Source: Lentisphaerae bacterium GWF2_38_69 (GTDB lineage: Bacteria > Verrucomicrobiota > Lentisphaeria > Victivallales > GWF2-38-69). Taken from it: a stretch of 39,165 nt of DNA. Shown here piece after piece: positions 13,445 to 19,096 of this stretch. A program made the position numbers and the translations under genes. The stretch is taken from contig MHBE01000009.1 of NCBI GenBank assembly GCA_001803205.1, forward strand, positions 1 to 39,165, in the 5' to 3' direction. The notes beneath the pieces were generated by a model, which did no database searches, had not been told where the DNA came from, and saw only the letters and a program-made list of their open reading frames with translations. Position 1 is the first letter of the stretch. Each line of letters starts with the position of its first letter.

Positions 13445-13471
13445 CACGGGCGTCTCGCCCGTGTTTTTTTT
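13445..13471 (+). terminator. Rho-independent terminator of rocD
   Basis: A perfect 8-bp GC-rich stem CACGGGCG-TCT-CGCCCGTG (13445-13463) is followed by eight T, 15 bases after the rocD stop. It separates rocD from the restriction-like system downstream. Confidence 0.92.
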
Positions 13472-13558: not shown

Positions 13559-13586
13559 TTGACTATTGACTATTGTTTCCTATAAA
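13559..13586 (+). promoter_or_regulatory. Putative promoter of the methyltransferase-MORC-OLD-Vsr operon
   Basis: TTGACT (13559-13564) and TATAAA (13581-13586) are separated by 16 bases. The -35 is doubled by a second TTGACT at 13566-13571. Transcription would start near 13593, about 60 bases before the methyltransferase ATG. GCTAT (13553) and ATAGC (13595) flank the promoter and could be part of an operator. Confidence 0.5.
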
Positions 13587-13651
13587 GATAGACTATAGCA
13601 TGAATTAGTATAACCGTTAGAAGTATAATCATAACTGTCTATTTATTACGC

Positions 13652-14746
13652 ATGCAAAAGAGAATCAAAGAGATAGAATCAGGAAACAACAAAAGACTGA
13701 AAGCAGTGGATTTTTTTTGTTCTGGAGGCGGAATGACTGCTGGATTTCGCAAGGCTGGTATCAAAGTCTTGGGAGGAATTGATATTGATTCGGAATGCGG
13801 AAGAACTTATACCGAAAACAACCCCGGTTCGAAATTTATTCACTCTGATATCAAAAAGTTATCTTTTTTAACTCTCAAAACAGAACTCAAAATAGAAGAG
13901 AATGATGATAATCTGATATTTATCGGATGTAGCCCTTGTCAATACTGGAGCAATATCAAGACAATAAAAGCGAAATCGGAAGAATCCAAAAACCTACTCG
14001 TCGACTTCCAAAAGTTTGTAGATCATTTTAATCCTGGATATATTGTGATAGAAAATGTCCCAGGTATTCTAAAGCGTTCCGAAGAGAGTCCGCTGAAAGC
14101 CTTCTTAAGTTTTCTTAATAAAAAGAATTATAAATATGTGCATGACATAATTAACGCATCTCATTACGGCGTTCCTCAAACAAGAAGAAGGTTTTTACTT
14201 CTTGCTTCAAGGGTTACGGATAATATTTCTTTGCCAATAGCTGATACCAAAGACAGTTTGCCGACGGTCAGACACTTTATCGGAGATAAAAAGAAGTTTA
14301 AAGCGATTCCAATAGGACATAATGATACTACGGATTTTCTGCATACGACATCAGGACTTTCAGCTGATAACCAAAAGCGCTTACTACTTACGCCTCATGA
14401 CGGTGGAACAAGAATGGCATGGAAAGATACGGAATTGCAAATTCCGGCTTACATGGGAAAGGATAATTCTTTTCAGGATATATATGGGAGAATGTATTGG
14501 GACAAACCAGGTCCAACAATTACGACAAAATTTTTTAGCATAACAAACGGGAGATTTGGTCACCCTGAACAAGACAGAGGGATTTCGCTTCGTGAAGGTG
14601 CAACTCTACAAACTTTTGATTTGGATTATAAGTTTTTTTCTACATCAATGGCATCTGCCGCACGCATAATCGGTAATGCCGTACCTCCTCAATTATCAAT
14701 GCGTATTGCAAAAACAATATTAAAGAATATTCGAAACTATGACTGA
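13652..14746 (+). CDS. DNA (cytosine-5-)-methyltransferase
   Basis: A 364-residue C5-cytosine methyltransferase with its motifs in standard order: I (VDFFCSGGGMTAGF, residues 19-32, SAM binding), IV (GCSPCQYWSN, catalytic Cys96), VI (IENVPGIL, Glu134), VIII (QTRRRF, 176-181) and X (GNAVPPQ, 341-347). The region between VIII and X (residues about 190-320) should contain the target-recognition domain; the recognition sequence cannot be read from it. The Trp-Ser after PCQ differs from the commoner PCQPFS. Its end overlaps the next gene by 8 bases. It is the modification arm of the system downstream, and the terminal Vsr gene independently supports 5-methylcytosine as the product. Confidence 0.95.
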   Translation: MQKRIKEIESGNNKRLKAVDFFCSGGGMTAGFRKAGIKVLGGIDIDSECGRTYTENNPGSKFIHSDIKKLSFLTLKTELKIEENDDNLIFIGCSPCQYWSNIKTIKAKSEESKNLLVDFQKFVDHFNPGYIVIENVPGILKRSEESPLKAFLSFLNKKNYKYVHDIINASHYGVPQTRRRFLLLASRVTDNISLPIADTKDSLPTVRHFIGDKKKFKAIPIGHNDTTDFLHTTSGLSADNQKRLLLTPHDGGTRMAWKDTELQIPAYMGKDNSFQDIYGRMYWDKPGPTITTKFFSITNGRFGHPEQDRGISLREGATLQTFDLDYKFFSTSMASAARIIGNAVPPQLSMRIAKTILKNIRNYD

Positions 14747-16787
14747 AAGAACTAAGATATTCCATATAAAGATATTAGGAAGATTGCTTGAGCTTCTAGG
14801 CGTTCAAATGTATAAACATAGAGATGCGGCTGTTGCTGAACTTGTTGCAAACTCTTGGGATGCCGGAGCAAAGCATGTTTGGATTACTATCCCAACTGGT
14901 ACCGAGTATAACAAAGATATAAGCGAAATCTCTATAGAAGACGATGGCTGTGGGATGAATGAGGCAAGCTTGCAAGATAAATATCTTGTAATTGGGCGGA
15001 ACAGAAGGATTGCAGAAAGTTCTGAAGAGTTTAAAGGCAGACGAGTTATGGGAAGAAAGGGAATTGGCAAACTCGCTGGCTTTGGAATAGCATCGATGAT
15101 GAAAGTTGAAACATGGATAGATAATCAATCCATTGAGATTTCTCTTGATCTGAATCATTTGAAAAACAATCCTACTACAGAAACAAAAGATGATATAGAT
15201 AAAAATTTAGATGGTACTATTCGCGATGAAAAACCTAAAGGTATACATGAAGTCTCCTGTTCAGGTACCCGCATTAGGCTATCTACATTAAAACAACAGA
15301 CCAGTATAGATATTAATGCTTTACATATTTCGTTGGCGAGGAGATTTAGTAGAACAGTTCAAGGACACATGAAGATTTTCATTAATGAAGAACCTTTAAA
15401 ACCACCTAAAATTGACATACATAAAAATTCGCCACCTTTAGATAACGAACTTGAAACTGAAAGACTAGATAATAATGAGGTTAAGTATACATATTCTTAT
15501 TCTAACAGCCCCTTAACAAGAGATAGGAATTTACAAGGATGGACTATTTTAGTTAACGGAAAGACAGCACAAGCCCCACCCTTCTTTTTCAATGTAGATA
15601 TTAATGGGACATCCCAGCATAGTAGTAAATACCTACTTGGCACTATAGAAGCCGATTTCTTGGACAAGGGTTCAACAGATGAGACTGATATTGTTTCTAC
15701 TGATAGACAAGAGATAGATTGGGATAGAGAAGAAGCAAAATCATTATGGGATTGGGGACGAAAGCTTACGCAAAAAATCTTTAACGAAATTGGTGAGCGT
15801 AATGCTGAAGAATCTAAAAACATTGTTGAAGAACATCCAGAGTATAAAGCCAGAATAGATGCGCTAGATAAACCACTTCGAATACAATGCTTAAAATTCA
15901 TTGGCAGTATTGGTAAAATAAAAGTGTATGGGGATGAAATGTCAGCCAAGGAAAAAATTCTTCAGATGGCGGATCAAATTATAAAGGCCTTTGAGTATAG
16001 GCATTTTATCGATGTAATTAATGATATTGAAGAAGCAAGTGAAAACCCAGAAAACCTAGAAATACTTCTTACTCATTTAGAAAAATGGGAAGTGCTAGAA
16101 AGCCGCTCGATACTCGAAATTATAAAAGGGCGGATAAGGGTTGTTGACAAATTTTATGACATGATTATTAATAGAGCTCCAGAGACGGCAAATAGAGACT
16201 TGGGCGCAGATAATTTTCATGATTTAATTGCTGGGTTCCCTTGGCTATTAAATCCTGAATGGCAAGTATATTTAGAAGAGAAGTCAATTTCTACCATACT
16301 TAAAAAACTAGGAGAAAATGACTTTCCTGAATTAATGAAGAATAAGCGAGTAGATTTTCTTGCCTTACAAGGTAGCGGCACAATTGCTGTAATTGAAATA
16401 AAAAGTGTAGATGATGTCTTACCTTTAGAGGAGCTTAGAAAGCTTGAAGATTATAAAAATGCTTTAACTTCTGCCCACAAAGAAAAATTGGTATGTGTTT
16501 TAATATTTGGTGGCAAACATAGTATACCAAAAGAGACATGGCAAAGATACGAAGAATCCGTAGACTTCAAAATCTTGGAGTGGAAAAATGTTTTTTCTGC
16601 CAATAAAAACTATTACTTGCACTATAGAGCTGTTCTTGAAAACCATATTTCAGATCCTAATTTCAGACTGAAAGCAGATGAAATTAAAAACACAAGAAGA
16701 ATGCTAGAGAAAGACTCGGTTTATCGTAATGTGATTGATAGAAAAGAAGGACTAGGTATTCAAGATATAAACATTCCTATATCTTAA
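14739..16787 (+). CDS. GHKL (MutL/MORC-like) ATPase fused to a PD-(D/E)XK nuclease domain
   Basis: A 682-residue protein. The N-terminal GHKL ATPase has the N box AVAELVANSWDAGAKHV (Glu34, Asn38), G1 box EDDGCGM (68-73) and G2 box MGRKGIGKLAGFG (104-116), the glycine-rich ATP lid of Hsp90, MutL and MORC proteins. A middle region (about 250-520) is mainly helical without clear motifs. Near the C-terminus, RVDFLALQGSGTIAVIEIKS gives Asp539 and Glu553-x-Lys555, the D...E-x-K core of a PD-(D/E)XK nuclease, with EEKSIS upstream. Prokaryotic MORC-like ATPases are known from restriction-modification neighbourhoods. The likely role is an ATP-operated clamp or translocating nuclease that attacks unmodified DNA. 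It overlaps the methyltransferase by 8 bases; 91 bases separate it from the next gene. Confidence 0.85.
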   Translation: MTERTKIFHIKILGRLLELLGVQMYKHRDAAVAELVANSWDAGAKHVWITIPTGTEYNKDISEISIEDDGCGMNEASLQDKYLVIGRNRRIAESSEEFKGRRVMGRKGIGKLAGFGIASMMKVETWIDNQSIEISLDLNHLKNNPTTETKDDIDKNLDGTIRDEKPKGIHEVSCSGTRIRLSTLKQQTSIDINALHISLARRFSRTVQGHMKIFINEEPLKPPKIDIHKNSPPLDNELETERLDNNEVKYTYSYSNSPLTRDRNLQGWTILVNGKTAQAPPFFFNVDINGTSQHSSKYLLGTIEADFLDKGSTDETDIVSTDRQEIDWDREEAKSLWDWGRKLTQKIFNEIGERNAEESKNIVEEHPEYKARIDALDKPLRIQCLKFIGSIGKIKVYGDEMSAKEKILQMADQIIKAFEYRHFIDVINDIEEASENPENLEILLTHLEKWEVLESRSILEIIKGRIRVVDKFYDMIINRAPETANRDLGADNFHDLIAGFPWLLNPEWQVYLEEKSISTILKKLGENDFPELMKNKRVDFLALQGSGTIAVIEIKSVDDVLPLEELRKLEDYKNALTSAHKEKLVCVLIFGGKHSIPKETWQRYEESVDFKILEWKNVFSANKNYYLHYRAVLENHISDPNFRLKADEIKNTRRMLEKDSVYRNVIDRKEGLGIQDINIPIS

Positions 16788-16878
16788 TTGTTTATTGATA
16801 TAAGATACTGATTATAAGTTGATAATTGTTTTTTTACATAGCAAGTAAGCCAGATATTTTTAGTCTGCTGATATTACA

Positions 16879-18666
16879 ATGGATATTGCAATCCTGATAG
16901 ATGAAATTTCAAAGATGAAAGCAAGAAATGCTTTCAAAAGCTATATTGAGTATATTCAATTTCCATATTTCAGAAATCTAGAGAAGAATACGCGAATTAC
17001 TTTTGGTTTTCCTTTGACTGTTTTTGTAGGTCAAAACGGTTCTGGCAAAAGTTCTACACTTCATGCTCTTTATGGAGCACCTAAGAAAAACACTCCTTAT
17101 GATTTTTGGTTTTCTACCGCTATTGATCCTATTATAGAAGTTTCAAGTGGTGGTGATCGACATTGCTTTTTCTATGTCTATAAAAACCACATGGGCAATG
17201 AGCTTGAAGTCCTTAAATTGCGTATATTCAAACGGAATAATCCTGATTACTGGGAAACCAGTAGGCCGGTGTTAGCCTATGGAATGAAGAAACTACCTGG
17301 AGGGAAACGAAACGAACCTATTGAAAAAGATGTCGTATATATAGATTTTAGATCAGAACTTAGTGCTTTTGATAAATATTTTTACTTTAAAGATCCAAGA
17401 AGGACTAAAACAGTTAAGACCAAACAGGACTACCTAAGAAAGTATTCTGTGTATTTGAAGAAAATAATTGATGGAAAAGGATCAATTTTAACAAGATACA
17501 ATAAGGAACAAAACGAAACGCTTAAAATATTTACTCCCATCGAGCTTTATCATATTTCAACTATTTTAGGTAAGAAGTATAAATCTGGAAAAATTGTAAG
17601 ACACAAATTGTTCGAAGAATGGGGATACTCTGTTATTTTTGAGACAGCAGTCTGTTCTTATTCTGAGGCTTTTGCAGGTAGTGGTGAGATAGCTGTTGTA
17701 AGGTTGGTTTTAGAGGTTTTAGATGCAAAGCAATATTCTCTTGTTTTGTTAGATGAACCTGAGGTGTCTTTGCATCCAGGAGCACAAAAACGACTAACAT
17801 ATTTTCTTCTGGATCAGACAAGAAAGAAACAACTGCAAGTAGTTGTTTCTACTCATTCTCCCAGCATCATAGAAATATTACCGCCTAAAGCCATCAAAGT
17901 TTTCTCTCAGCTTCCTTCAGGAAAATTTAATGTCACTAATGAGGTAACACCTGATGAGGCATTCTATCATTTAGAACAAACCAGCTCCGCAAATAAAACC
18001 TTAATAGTAGAAGATTTGCTATCAAAAGAAATCGTCAATGGGGTATTAAAAGAGATGGGCAACGCTACTGCGTCACTATTTCAAGTTAACTATTATACTG
18101 GAGGCGCTTCAGTTATTAAAAATAATTTTATCAATGTATATAGCCACTCCAATGAGTTAAATAAGTTTGTCATTTTTGATGGTGACCAAAAATTAGTTCC
18201 ACAACATTTCAATCCTGATTCAATAATCGGATTAGATCAAACGATTGAAAGATATAAAAGTGAAATAAAGAAACAAACAGGAAGCGATATTACTTTTTAT
18301 CCTGACGGTAGCAAAAATGGAGGAGCAAGAGAGGATCAGCTTAAAAAACTACAGGAAAATTACTTAAGATTCTATTTGCGTAATGTTTTTTATTTGCCGT
18401 TAAAGTCACCGGAAGAAATAATCTGGAATCAAGAGTTGGTCGAACAGTTTTTGAAAGCAATAAAGAAAGCGGATAGCATAGAAAAAATTAATGAGACCGA
18501 AGGTTGTAAAGATAGATTTCTGCTTATTACAGAGGCTATGACAGGCGATAGTAAAAATATTGTTTCAATTGAAAAAATGTTTTTAGAAAATTGGTTAAAG
18601 GAAAAACCTGTAACATATGAGCAAGTAATAGCAATTATTACATCTATCCGAGATTTAAATGACTGA
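16879..18666 (+). CDS. OLD-like ABC-type ATPase with C-terminal TOPRIM domain
   Basis: A 595-residue protein. An ABC/SMC-type ATPase is split around a long insertion: Walker A FVGQNGSGKSS (residues 49-59), a signature-like FAGSGEIAVVRLVLEVL (265-281), Walker B YSLVLLDEPEVSLHPG (286-301) and the switch VSTHSPSII (323-331). The C-terminal part carries TOPRIM features: Glu378 in TLIVEDLLSKEIV and the acidic pair in FVIFDGDQK (Asp434, Asp436). This architecture is that of OLD-family nucleases, which include the GajA subunit of Gabija and the P2 Old protein. No UvrD-type helicase is present, so it is not Gabija. Its end overlaps the vsr gene by 8 bases, so the two are probably co-translated. Confidence 0.82.
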   Translation: MDIAILIDEISKMKARNAFKSYIEYIQFPYFRNLEKNTRITFGFPLTVFVGQNGSGKSSTLHALYGAPKKNTPYDFWFSTAIDPIIEVSSGGDRHCFFYVYKNHMGNELEVLKLRIFKRNNPDYWETSRPVLAYGMKKLPGGKRNEPIEKDVVYIDFRSELSAFDKYFYFKDPRRTKTVKTKQDYLRKYSVYLKKIIDGKGSILTRYNKEQNETLKIFTPIELYHISTILGKKYKSGKIVRHKLFEEWGYSVIFETAVCSYSEAFAGSGEIAVVRLVLEVLDAKQYSLVLLDEPEVSLHPGAQKRLTYFLLDQTRKKQLQVVVSTHSPSIIEILPPKAIKVFSQLPSGKFNVTNEVTPDEAFYHLEQTSSANKTLIVEDLLSKEIVNGVLKEMGNATASLFQVNYYTGGASVIKNNFINVYSHSNELNKFVIFDGDQKLVPQHFNPDSIIGLDQTIERYKSEIKKQTGSDITFYPDGSKNGGAREDQLKKLQENYLRFYLRNVFYLPLKSPEEIIWNQELVEQFLKAIKKADSIEKINETEGCKDRFLLITEAMTGDSKNIVSIEKMFLENWLKEKPVTYEQVIAIITSIRDLND

Positions 18667-19096
18667 TGTTTTTACAAAGAAGAAGCGTAGTCAACTGATG
18701 GCTTTGATTTCCGGAAAAGAAACAAAACCCGAAATATCGGTCAGAAGTTTTTTATTCAGACAAGGTTTCCGTTTCCGTAAGAATGTAAAAACGCTTCACG
18801 GTAAACCTGATATTGTATTACCAAAATATAAAACTGTAATCTTTGTTCACGGATGTTTCTGGCATGGACACGAGAGTTGTTCAAAGGGAACTCGACCAAC
18901 CTCTAATGTTGAATTTTGGAAAACAAAAATTCAAAGGAATATTGACAGGGACTCCAAAGTCAAAAACGAACTTAATGCTTTAGGTTGGCATGTTATAACC
19001 ATATGGGAGTGCGAAATAAAGAATAAAGGTTCCTTTTCTGCTATGATGAACAAACTGATTAGTCTTTTAAAATCATTAAATAGAACAAAGAAATAG
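18659..19096 (+). CDS. vsr: Vsr (very short patch repair) endonuclease
   Basis: A 145-residue Vsr-family nickase. Seen are the start FTKKKRSQLMALISGKETKP, the catalytic Asp51 in LHGKPDIVLPKYK, the FVHGCFWHGHESC block with His64 and His69 and zinc ligands, and the closing GWHVITIWECE. The numbering of Asp51, His64 and His69 agrees with E. coli Vsr as I recall it. Vsr nicks next to T:G mismatches made when 5-methylcytosine deaminates, so its presence with a C5-methyltransferase is expected. It is the last gene of the operon, overlapping the OLD-like gene by 8 bases (AAATGACTGA). Confidence 0.94.
   Translation: MTDVFTKKKRSQLMALISGKETKPEISVRSFLFRQGFRFRKNVKTLHGKPDIVLPKYKTVIFVHGCFWHGHESCSKGTRPTSNVEFWKTKIQRNIDRDSKVKNELNALGWHVITIWECEIKNKGSFSAMMNKLISLLKSLNRTKK

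Follow-up and report, generated by a model that had tools for sequence, protein, structure and literature searches.

Which nuclease is held in check by a DNA methyltransferase that has two unrelated nuclease genes beside it? The question is raised by a block of four same-strand genes in MHBE01000009.1, a 39,165-nucleotide (nt) stretch of DNA from Lentisphaerae bacterium GWF2_38_69 that was analysed as a whole and is called the window here. The block encodes a C5-cytosine DNA methyltransferase (M), a GHKL ATPase that also carries a nuclease domain (the GHKL protein), an OLD-like protein and Vsr, arranged as follows (lengths in amino acids, aa):

13652..14746, + strand: M, C5-cytosine DNA methyltransferase (364 aa; PC motif with Cys96, ENV at 134-136)
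14739..16787, + strand: GHKL protein, the inferred restriction enzyme R (682 aa; GHKL/MORC-like ATPase with a C-terminal PD-(D/E)XK nuclease)
16215..16637, + strand: PD-(D/E)XK nuclease domain of the GHKL protein (about aa 493-633; Asp539, Glu553, Lys555)
16879..18666, + strand: OLD-family ABC ATPase-TOPRIM nuclease (595 aa; Lys57; Glu378, Asp434, Asp436)
18659..19096, + strand: Vsr, very-short-patch T:G mismatch endonuclease (145 aa; Asp51)

An earlier note made from the sequence had proposed these four genes as one system. The open reading frames (ORFs) are real, and the two 8-nt overlaps that it reported, at the M/GHKL and OLD/Vsr junctions, are present; a gap of 91 nt separates the GHKL gene from OLD. 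The catalytic residues that it named also held up, with Cys96 of M, Glu34 of the GHKL protein and Lys57 and Glu378 of OLD at conserved positions, and Asp51 of Vsr assigned by inspecting its PD motif. Nucleases of the OLD family are found widely in defence. For Gabija it has been stated to be open how self is distinguished from non-self (PMC12407980), and in our assessment the composite 5-methylcytosine (5mC) restriction-modification (R-M) operon in the window reveals a methyltransferase-associated class of these nucleases.

A clade of OLD nucleases paired with C5-methyltransferases

Searches of Pfam, PADLOC and the PDB placed the OLD-like protein in the ABC ATPase-TOPRIM (OLD) group, and it carries both the Walker A motif and the TOPRIM E...DxD residues that define the family. 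Its best PADLOC profile was HEC-04 (E=5e-35), but the match was partial, at 119 bits compared with the 626-719 bits reached by full-scoring HEC-04 proteins. HEC-04/IbfA (PMC12111858) shares the domain order of the window OLD but only 20-23% sequence identity with it. Residues K57, E378, D434 and D436 are invariant in 21 members of the clade described below and also in a set of 33 sequences that includes HEC-04-like proteins; conservation is lowest in the C-terminal region that follows the TOPRIM core. An AlphaFold (AF2) model based on 21 clade sequences (predicted local distance difference test, pLDDT, 84.8) matched the fold of Thermus OLD (TsOLD, 6p74) best, followed by GajA and the retron Eco8 OLD, with E-values of 1e-11 to 1e-13 and global template modelling (TM) scores that were low (~0.3; 0.32 for TsOLD), perhaps owing to domain arrangement.

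The published OLD classes, numbered 1-5, comprise single genes, Gabija, retrons, PARIS and archaeal Cran1 (PMC10568477, PMC12796447). The window OLD resembles them in its ABC ATPase and TOPRIM domains, its conserved catalytic acids and its TsOLD/GajA fold, and it differs in its partner: theirs are none, UvrD, a reverse transcriptase, the split AriAB and a membrane protein, respectively, whereas the partner of the window clade is a C5-methyltransferase. No UvrD/PcrA/Rep-like helicase of the Gabija GajB type (class 2) was found among the window ORFs between 12000 and 21500, and no reverse transcriptase, as in retrons (class 3), among the ORFs neighbouring OLD. The protein is a single 595-aa polypeptide, unlike the AriA/AriB split of PARIS (class 4). 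Class 1, to which HEC-04 belongs, stands alone, whereas every examined OLD of the window clade is accompanied by a C5-methyltransferase, either adjacent or no more than a few genes away.

The scans that delineated this clade used the OLD sequence alone, and were therefore not biased by M. The clade is distinct (34-45% identity) and comprises 22 clusters at 90% identity, with the window and L098 counted in. L098, a Rubritalea metagenome-assembled genome (MAG), supplied the first closer relative (37.5% identity over query residues 21-594), and there OLD closes a C-M-R-OLD operon (L098:5113-9522) in which C is a regulator and R an HpaII restriction enzyme (Pfam E=3e-101). When viral contigs were scanned, the single window OLD sequence gave no match, two members gave L103 and L104, and a profile of four members gave 32 loci. 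A C5-methyltransferase was present in the cassette of all 32 of these loci, as in L098 and the window. Counted by cluster, it lay beside OLD or within a few genes in 22 of 22 and was the immediate neighbour in 18; restriction-type genes separate OLD from M in the window (GHKL), in L098 (HpaII-type) and in L103 (a paraMORC gene and a response-regulator-like gene). In a control set of 14 HEC-04-like OLD loci, M was nearby in none (Fisher p about 3e-10), and HEC-04/IbfA-like genes, whether from plasmids or from genomes, have none of M, GHKL and Vsr with them. The earlier note had looked to close OLD homologues living routinely apart from methyltransferases as evidence against itself, and the close homologues proved always to be accompanied by a C5-methyltransferase. 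Gene order varies across the clade (OLD then M, M then OLD, or convergent) and the Ms are spread over several distinct branches; the linkage therefore does not reflect a single fixed operon passed down by descent. The idea that OLD is a random HEC-04-related insertion was rejected, L098 and the viral-contig scan having revealed a C5-methyltransferase-linked clade.

Most clade loci lie in prophages, usually as a bare OLD-M pair. Complete E. coli genomes hold three versions of the pair, in 10, 8 and 32 genomes, the last group including ATCC 8739, and OLD adjoins M in all 50 of the E. coli genomes that carry M. Nearly all of these pairs are annotated as 'ATP-dependent nuclease' next to 'DNA cytosine methyltransferase', and they lie in prophages, next to genes for antiterminator Q, lysis or Hok. 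In ATCC 8739 the prophage pair maps to about 1004746-1007639 of NZ_CP043852. Plasmid searches returned only distant HEC-04-like proteins and a search of INPHARED phages returned none, so the clade has been seen only in prophages, viral contigs and chromosomes. The phage protein family nearest to it is phrog_3940, which carries the annotation 'unknown function'. Wider genome sampling (the window's phylum and class, Verrucomicrobiota) found it only in the window and L098, indicating that it is rare there.

The methyltransferases bear on the same link. The window M matches Pfam DNA_methylase (E=2e-50), scores above the TIGR00675 dcm cut-off and has P95-C96-Q97 and E134-N135-V136 motifs that are invariant in the alignment. 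In a 40-row tree its sister is the L105 M (62% identity, support 99/94), and the M of L103 and a Phocaeicola plasmid M complete the clade (100/100). In L105 the M and OLD genes are neighbours and no GHKL gene is present, and the OLD of this locus is the closest full-length OLD found (45%). The Ms of the closest GHKL relatives, in L002 and L043, fall elsewhere in the tree. By its sequence, then, the window M belongs with OLD-paired Ms and not with those of the closest GHKL relatives.

Several loci of the clade have features of their own. In the phage-like contig L105 (L105:2358-7905), the M-OLD pair adjoins a second, divergent M-Vsr pair. In the viral contig L103 (L103:6977-14490), the genes for an M (53-54% to the window M), a 979-aa paraMORC-type GHKL protein and a response-regulator-like protein face the clade OLD gene, an arrangement resembling two-component-like R-M elements (PMC8011034). 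The pair can also be broken in prophages, since a transposase-like ORF interrupts OLD in L134 (L134:6989-10706) and another, by inspection, lies between OLD and M in L115 (L115:6923-11372).

The survey establishes that this OLD clade is paired with C5-methyltransferases; that methylation controls OLD is what we infer. We hold it an evenly balanced proposition that the pair represents an undescribed OLD class: a two-gene unit spread by prophages, in which methylation would license self DNA and unlicensed DNA would activate OLD, the window being a composite in which M is shared with an HgiDII-type restriction endonuclease. No OLD and C5-methyltransferase pair was found in a literature search whose range excluded bioRxiv, most subscription papers and REBASE, and the E. 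coli pairs may already be listed elsewhere, for example in REBASE. If the proposal is true, the clade would provide the first case of an OLD system licensed by classical modification, TOPRIM nucleases would join R-M systems in the restriction role, and the window would exemplify one methyltransferase serving two unrelated nucleases. The proposal is directly testable because complete E. coli genomes, ATCC 8739 and 31 more, carry an intact pair.

The GHKL protein and its association with M and Vsr

The earlier note had seen no classical restriction enzyme in the block and had cast the GHKL protein as a loader or scanner of DNA. Neither view fits the homology found. At full length the GHKL protein matches NCBIfam NF050001 (BbrUII/HgiDII) with E=1.2e-70, and its C-terminal 332 aa alone match profile positions 361-642 of 659 with E=5.4e-16; it is thus a full-length relative of known type II restriction enzymes, nuclease half included. 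Its score of 238.8 bits lies under the equivalog cut-off of 550 for that family, whose true members reach 800.8 bits (L055) and 620.8 bits (L004), so it is a relative of BbrUII/HgiDII and not an equivalog, and may differ in specificity. Among 16 diverse homologues, D539 and E553 never vary, and K555 reaches at least 90% conservation. The AF2 model (pLDDT 77) has an alpha/beta core in the PD-(D/E)XK domain and, in its N-terminal part, finds its best PDB fold match in the MORC3 ATPase. The protein also combines the features of paraMORC3, namely a GHKL domain, an S5-like domain and a C-terminal restriction endonuclease (RE) fold with E-D-ExK; in an alignment read by eye, the stretch corresponding to the MORC S5 motif GhXhhpXXRhl is GWTILVNGKTA, with K for R.

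The likeness to BbrUII/HgiDII extends to gene arrangement, in that a C5-methyltransferase adjoins a GHKL ATPase with a C-terminal PD-(D/E)XK domain, the two genes of the window overlapping by 8 nt. The window differs in that its GHKL protein is only ~25% identical to true members and that OLD and Vsr are added. The target methylated by M.HgiDII is GTCGAC, and M.BbrUII has been characterised as a 5mC enzyme (PMC5867850). A GHKL protein with an RE-fold C terminus (paraMORC3-like) together with DCM and Vsr also recalls the paraMORC/MORC R-M operons of Iyer et al. 2008 (PMC2292703), which, in the passages covered here, predicts a GHKL/methyltransferase/Vsr neighbourhood; the block has no SF2 helicase, and those same passages do not mention OLD.

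The window Vsr scores 147 bits against TIGR00632, above the curated cut-off of 97.85 (Pfam Vsr E=9e-34). Its resemblance to the V genes of m5C R-M systems (V.NgoAXIII, V.NgoAXIV; PMC6116569, PMC6789123) lies in a Vsr adjoining a C5-methyltransferase. Plasmids of Pantoea, Halobaculum, Haloplanus, Acinetobacter and Streptococcus carry a cytosine methyltransferase gene paired with a GHKL gene annotated 'ATP-binding protein', the two mostly adjacent or overlapping, and overlapping pairs were seen on prophages as well. With Vsr added, the set was found in L002 (a Chloroflexota MAG), L003 (Kitasatospora), L043 (same phylum as the window), L052 (a viral contig), L046, L086 and L088-L091, and none of these loci holds an OLD gene. 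The combination of M and GHKL, with or without Vsr, is spread over many phyla without OLD.

Two of the loci related to this frame are of interest in themselves. In L043 (L043:549-13012), type III R-M genes, GHKL, a C5-methyltransferase, a UvrD-like helicase with a Cas4-like C terminus and Vsr lie in a row. L099 (L099:7169-10134) is a remnant in Neisseria gonorrhoeae in which M, related to the window M (about 56%), is split into two ORFs in different frames and the GHKL gene is truncated to a 297-aa fragment, which sets it apart from the window; it also holds a Ymh-family gene and an intact Vsr that is the closest found (58% to the window's). It may be the NgoAXIII remnant of PMC6789123, for which that paper mentions only Vsr and a truncated methyltransferase.

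How the operon may work

We favour, with moderate confidence, the reading that the window carries a 5mC R-M operon with two restriction arms, an HgiDII-like restriction endonuclease and a methyltransferase-coupled OLD, together with Vsr repair. It is suggested by the homology of the GHKL protein to BbrUII/HgiDII, the overlapping M-GHKL pairs, the OLD-M linkage, the sister relation between the Ms of the window and L105, the correlation of OLD and M distances (Mantel r 0.82; 0.67 on 18 representatives; p=2e-4) and a Vsr that scores above its cut-off. A cognate restriction enzyme is blocked by methylation, and Vsr repairs T:G mismatches at deaminated 5mC. M would methylate its site and so mark self DNA, and the GHKL-PD-(D/E)XK protein would cut unmodified sites, presumably under ATP-driven dimer clamping. 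The OLD ATPase-TOPRIM protein would form a second nuclease arm against foreign DNA, kept off self DNA by the methylation that M lays down or by M itself, and Vsr would mend the mismatches left when 5mC deaminates. The model further supposes a target site common to the arms, methylation control of OLD, an anti-phage role and co-transcription. It retains from the earlier note methylation-based discrimination of self from non-self with more than one nuclease centre, and gives up the single four-part machine.

Several observations weigh against this reading. All four genes were seen together only in the window, an outcome that the earlier note had itself named as fatal to a conserved four-part unit; such a system was rejected, no second M+GHKL+OLD+Vsr locus being present among all fetched loci, and any joint function of the four is for that reason conjectural. 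The GHKL protein falls short of the equivalog score, and OLD, preceded by its own 91-nt gap, may be separately transcribed. The correlation of OLD and M distances, counted above in favour, would be expected for any co-travelling genes. Finally, the order M-GHKL-X-Vsr in L099, where X is the Ymh-family gene, and the helicase before Vsr in L043 suggest that this position is variable and that OLD may sit there as cargo.

The alternative that survives best, although we think it rather unlikely, takes M, the GHKL restriction endonuclease and Vsr as an ordinary type II R-M system and OLD as an independent, stand-alone defence gene that does not depend on M and is lodged in a variable slot before Vsr, much as HEC genes sit inside Hma systems. 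M+GHKL+Vsr does recur without OLD, a comparable slot is filled by the Ymh-family gene in L099 and the UvrD-like helicase in L043, HEC-04/IbfA relatives act alone (PMC12111858), and the 91-nt gap precedes OLD. Against it stands the association of the clade OLD, which was always seen with a C5-methyltransferase (22/22 clusters and 50/50 E. coli genomes, compared with 0/14 for HEC-04-like loci), OLD and M being the sole two cassette genes in most loci.

Two histories of the window are conceivable: an M-OLD pair may have acquired GHKL, or OLD may have entered an M-GHKL-Vsr frame. A second alternative, which we consider improbable, follows the former order: the core would be an M-OLD pair with M controlling OLD, either as a methylation-gated nuclease or as a guarded partner, and the GHKL restriction endonuclease would have been added later under protection by the same M. 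The window M does belong to the OLD-paired lineage and not with the Ms of the closest GHKL relatives, and L105 has adjacent M and OLD without GHKL. Yet the tight 8-nt M/GHKL overlap is of the kind seen in dedicated M-R pairs, and L099 combines a related M, the closest Vsr and a GHKL gene with no OLD.

Much less probable still is the model of the earlier note, in which the GHKL protein, as a scanner or loader on unmodified DNA, activates OLD and its own nuclease as a joint machine. The four genes are adjacent with two 8-nt overlaps, and GHKL ATPases have been proposed, in the covered passages of PMC2292703, to act on DNA superstructure with nucleases; but relatives of the GHKL protein are found as restriction enzymes accompanied by M alone, those of OLD pair with M alone, and the only second locus found with both GHKL and OLD is L103, whose GHKL family differs. 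That M-OLD is mere prophage cargo, in which M only shields phage DNA, OLD separately excludes phages and the linkage reflects one successful cassette, is scarcely credible: most loci are indeed prophages, with the pair between antiterminator Q and lysis or Hok genes, but the linkage also appears in a Verrucomicrobiota HpaII R-M operon and in the chromosomal operon of the window, and it survives reversed and convergent orders and unrelated M lineages.

Setting and transcription of the block

Co-transcription, which the two-arm reading supposes, was considered together with the non-coding features of the region:

13445..13463, + strand: intrinsic-terminator-like hairpin that ends the upstream aminotransferase gene (8-pair stem, 7 G-C, then T8)
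13566..13594, + strand: weak sigma-70-like promoter candidate, TTGACT-17-TAGACT (9/12; not above chance)
16788..16878, + strand: GHKL-OLD intergenic gap of 91 nt (weak promoter-like site at 16833-16860, not above chance)

The terminator that had been reported upstream is present, as a hairpin of 8 pairs with a T-run. The single shared promoter proposed alongside it fared less well, the upstream candidate being no better than chance and OLD having its own gap with a weak promoter-like site. A single transcript is not established, because promoter-like sites are no commoner in the region than in shuffled sequence (20 observed compared with 22.9 expected).

The four ORFs sit between a class-III aminotransferase gene and tatC. 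The hairpin splits the defence block from the housekeeping aminotransferase gene, and with this terminator on one side and tatC on the other the block gives the impression of having been inserted between housekeeping genes. The G+C content of the four genes is 0.34-0.37, that of the flanks 0.377-0.379 and that of two neighbouring genes 0.41-0.44; the low G+C of the block is a weak hint of acquisition.

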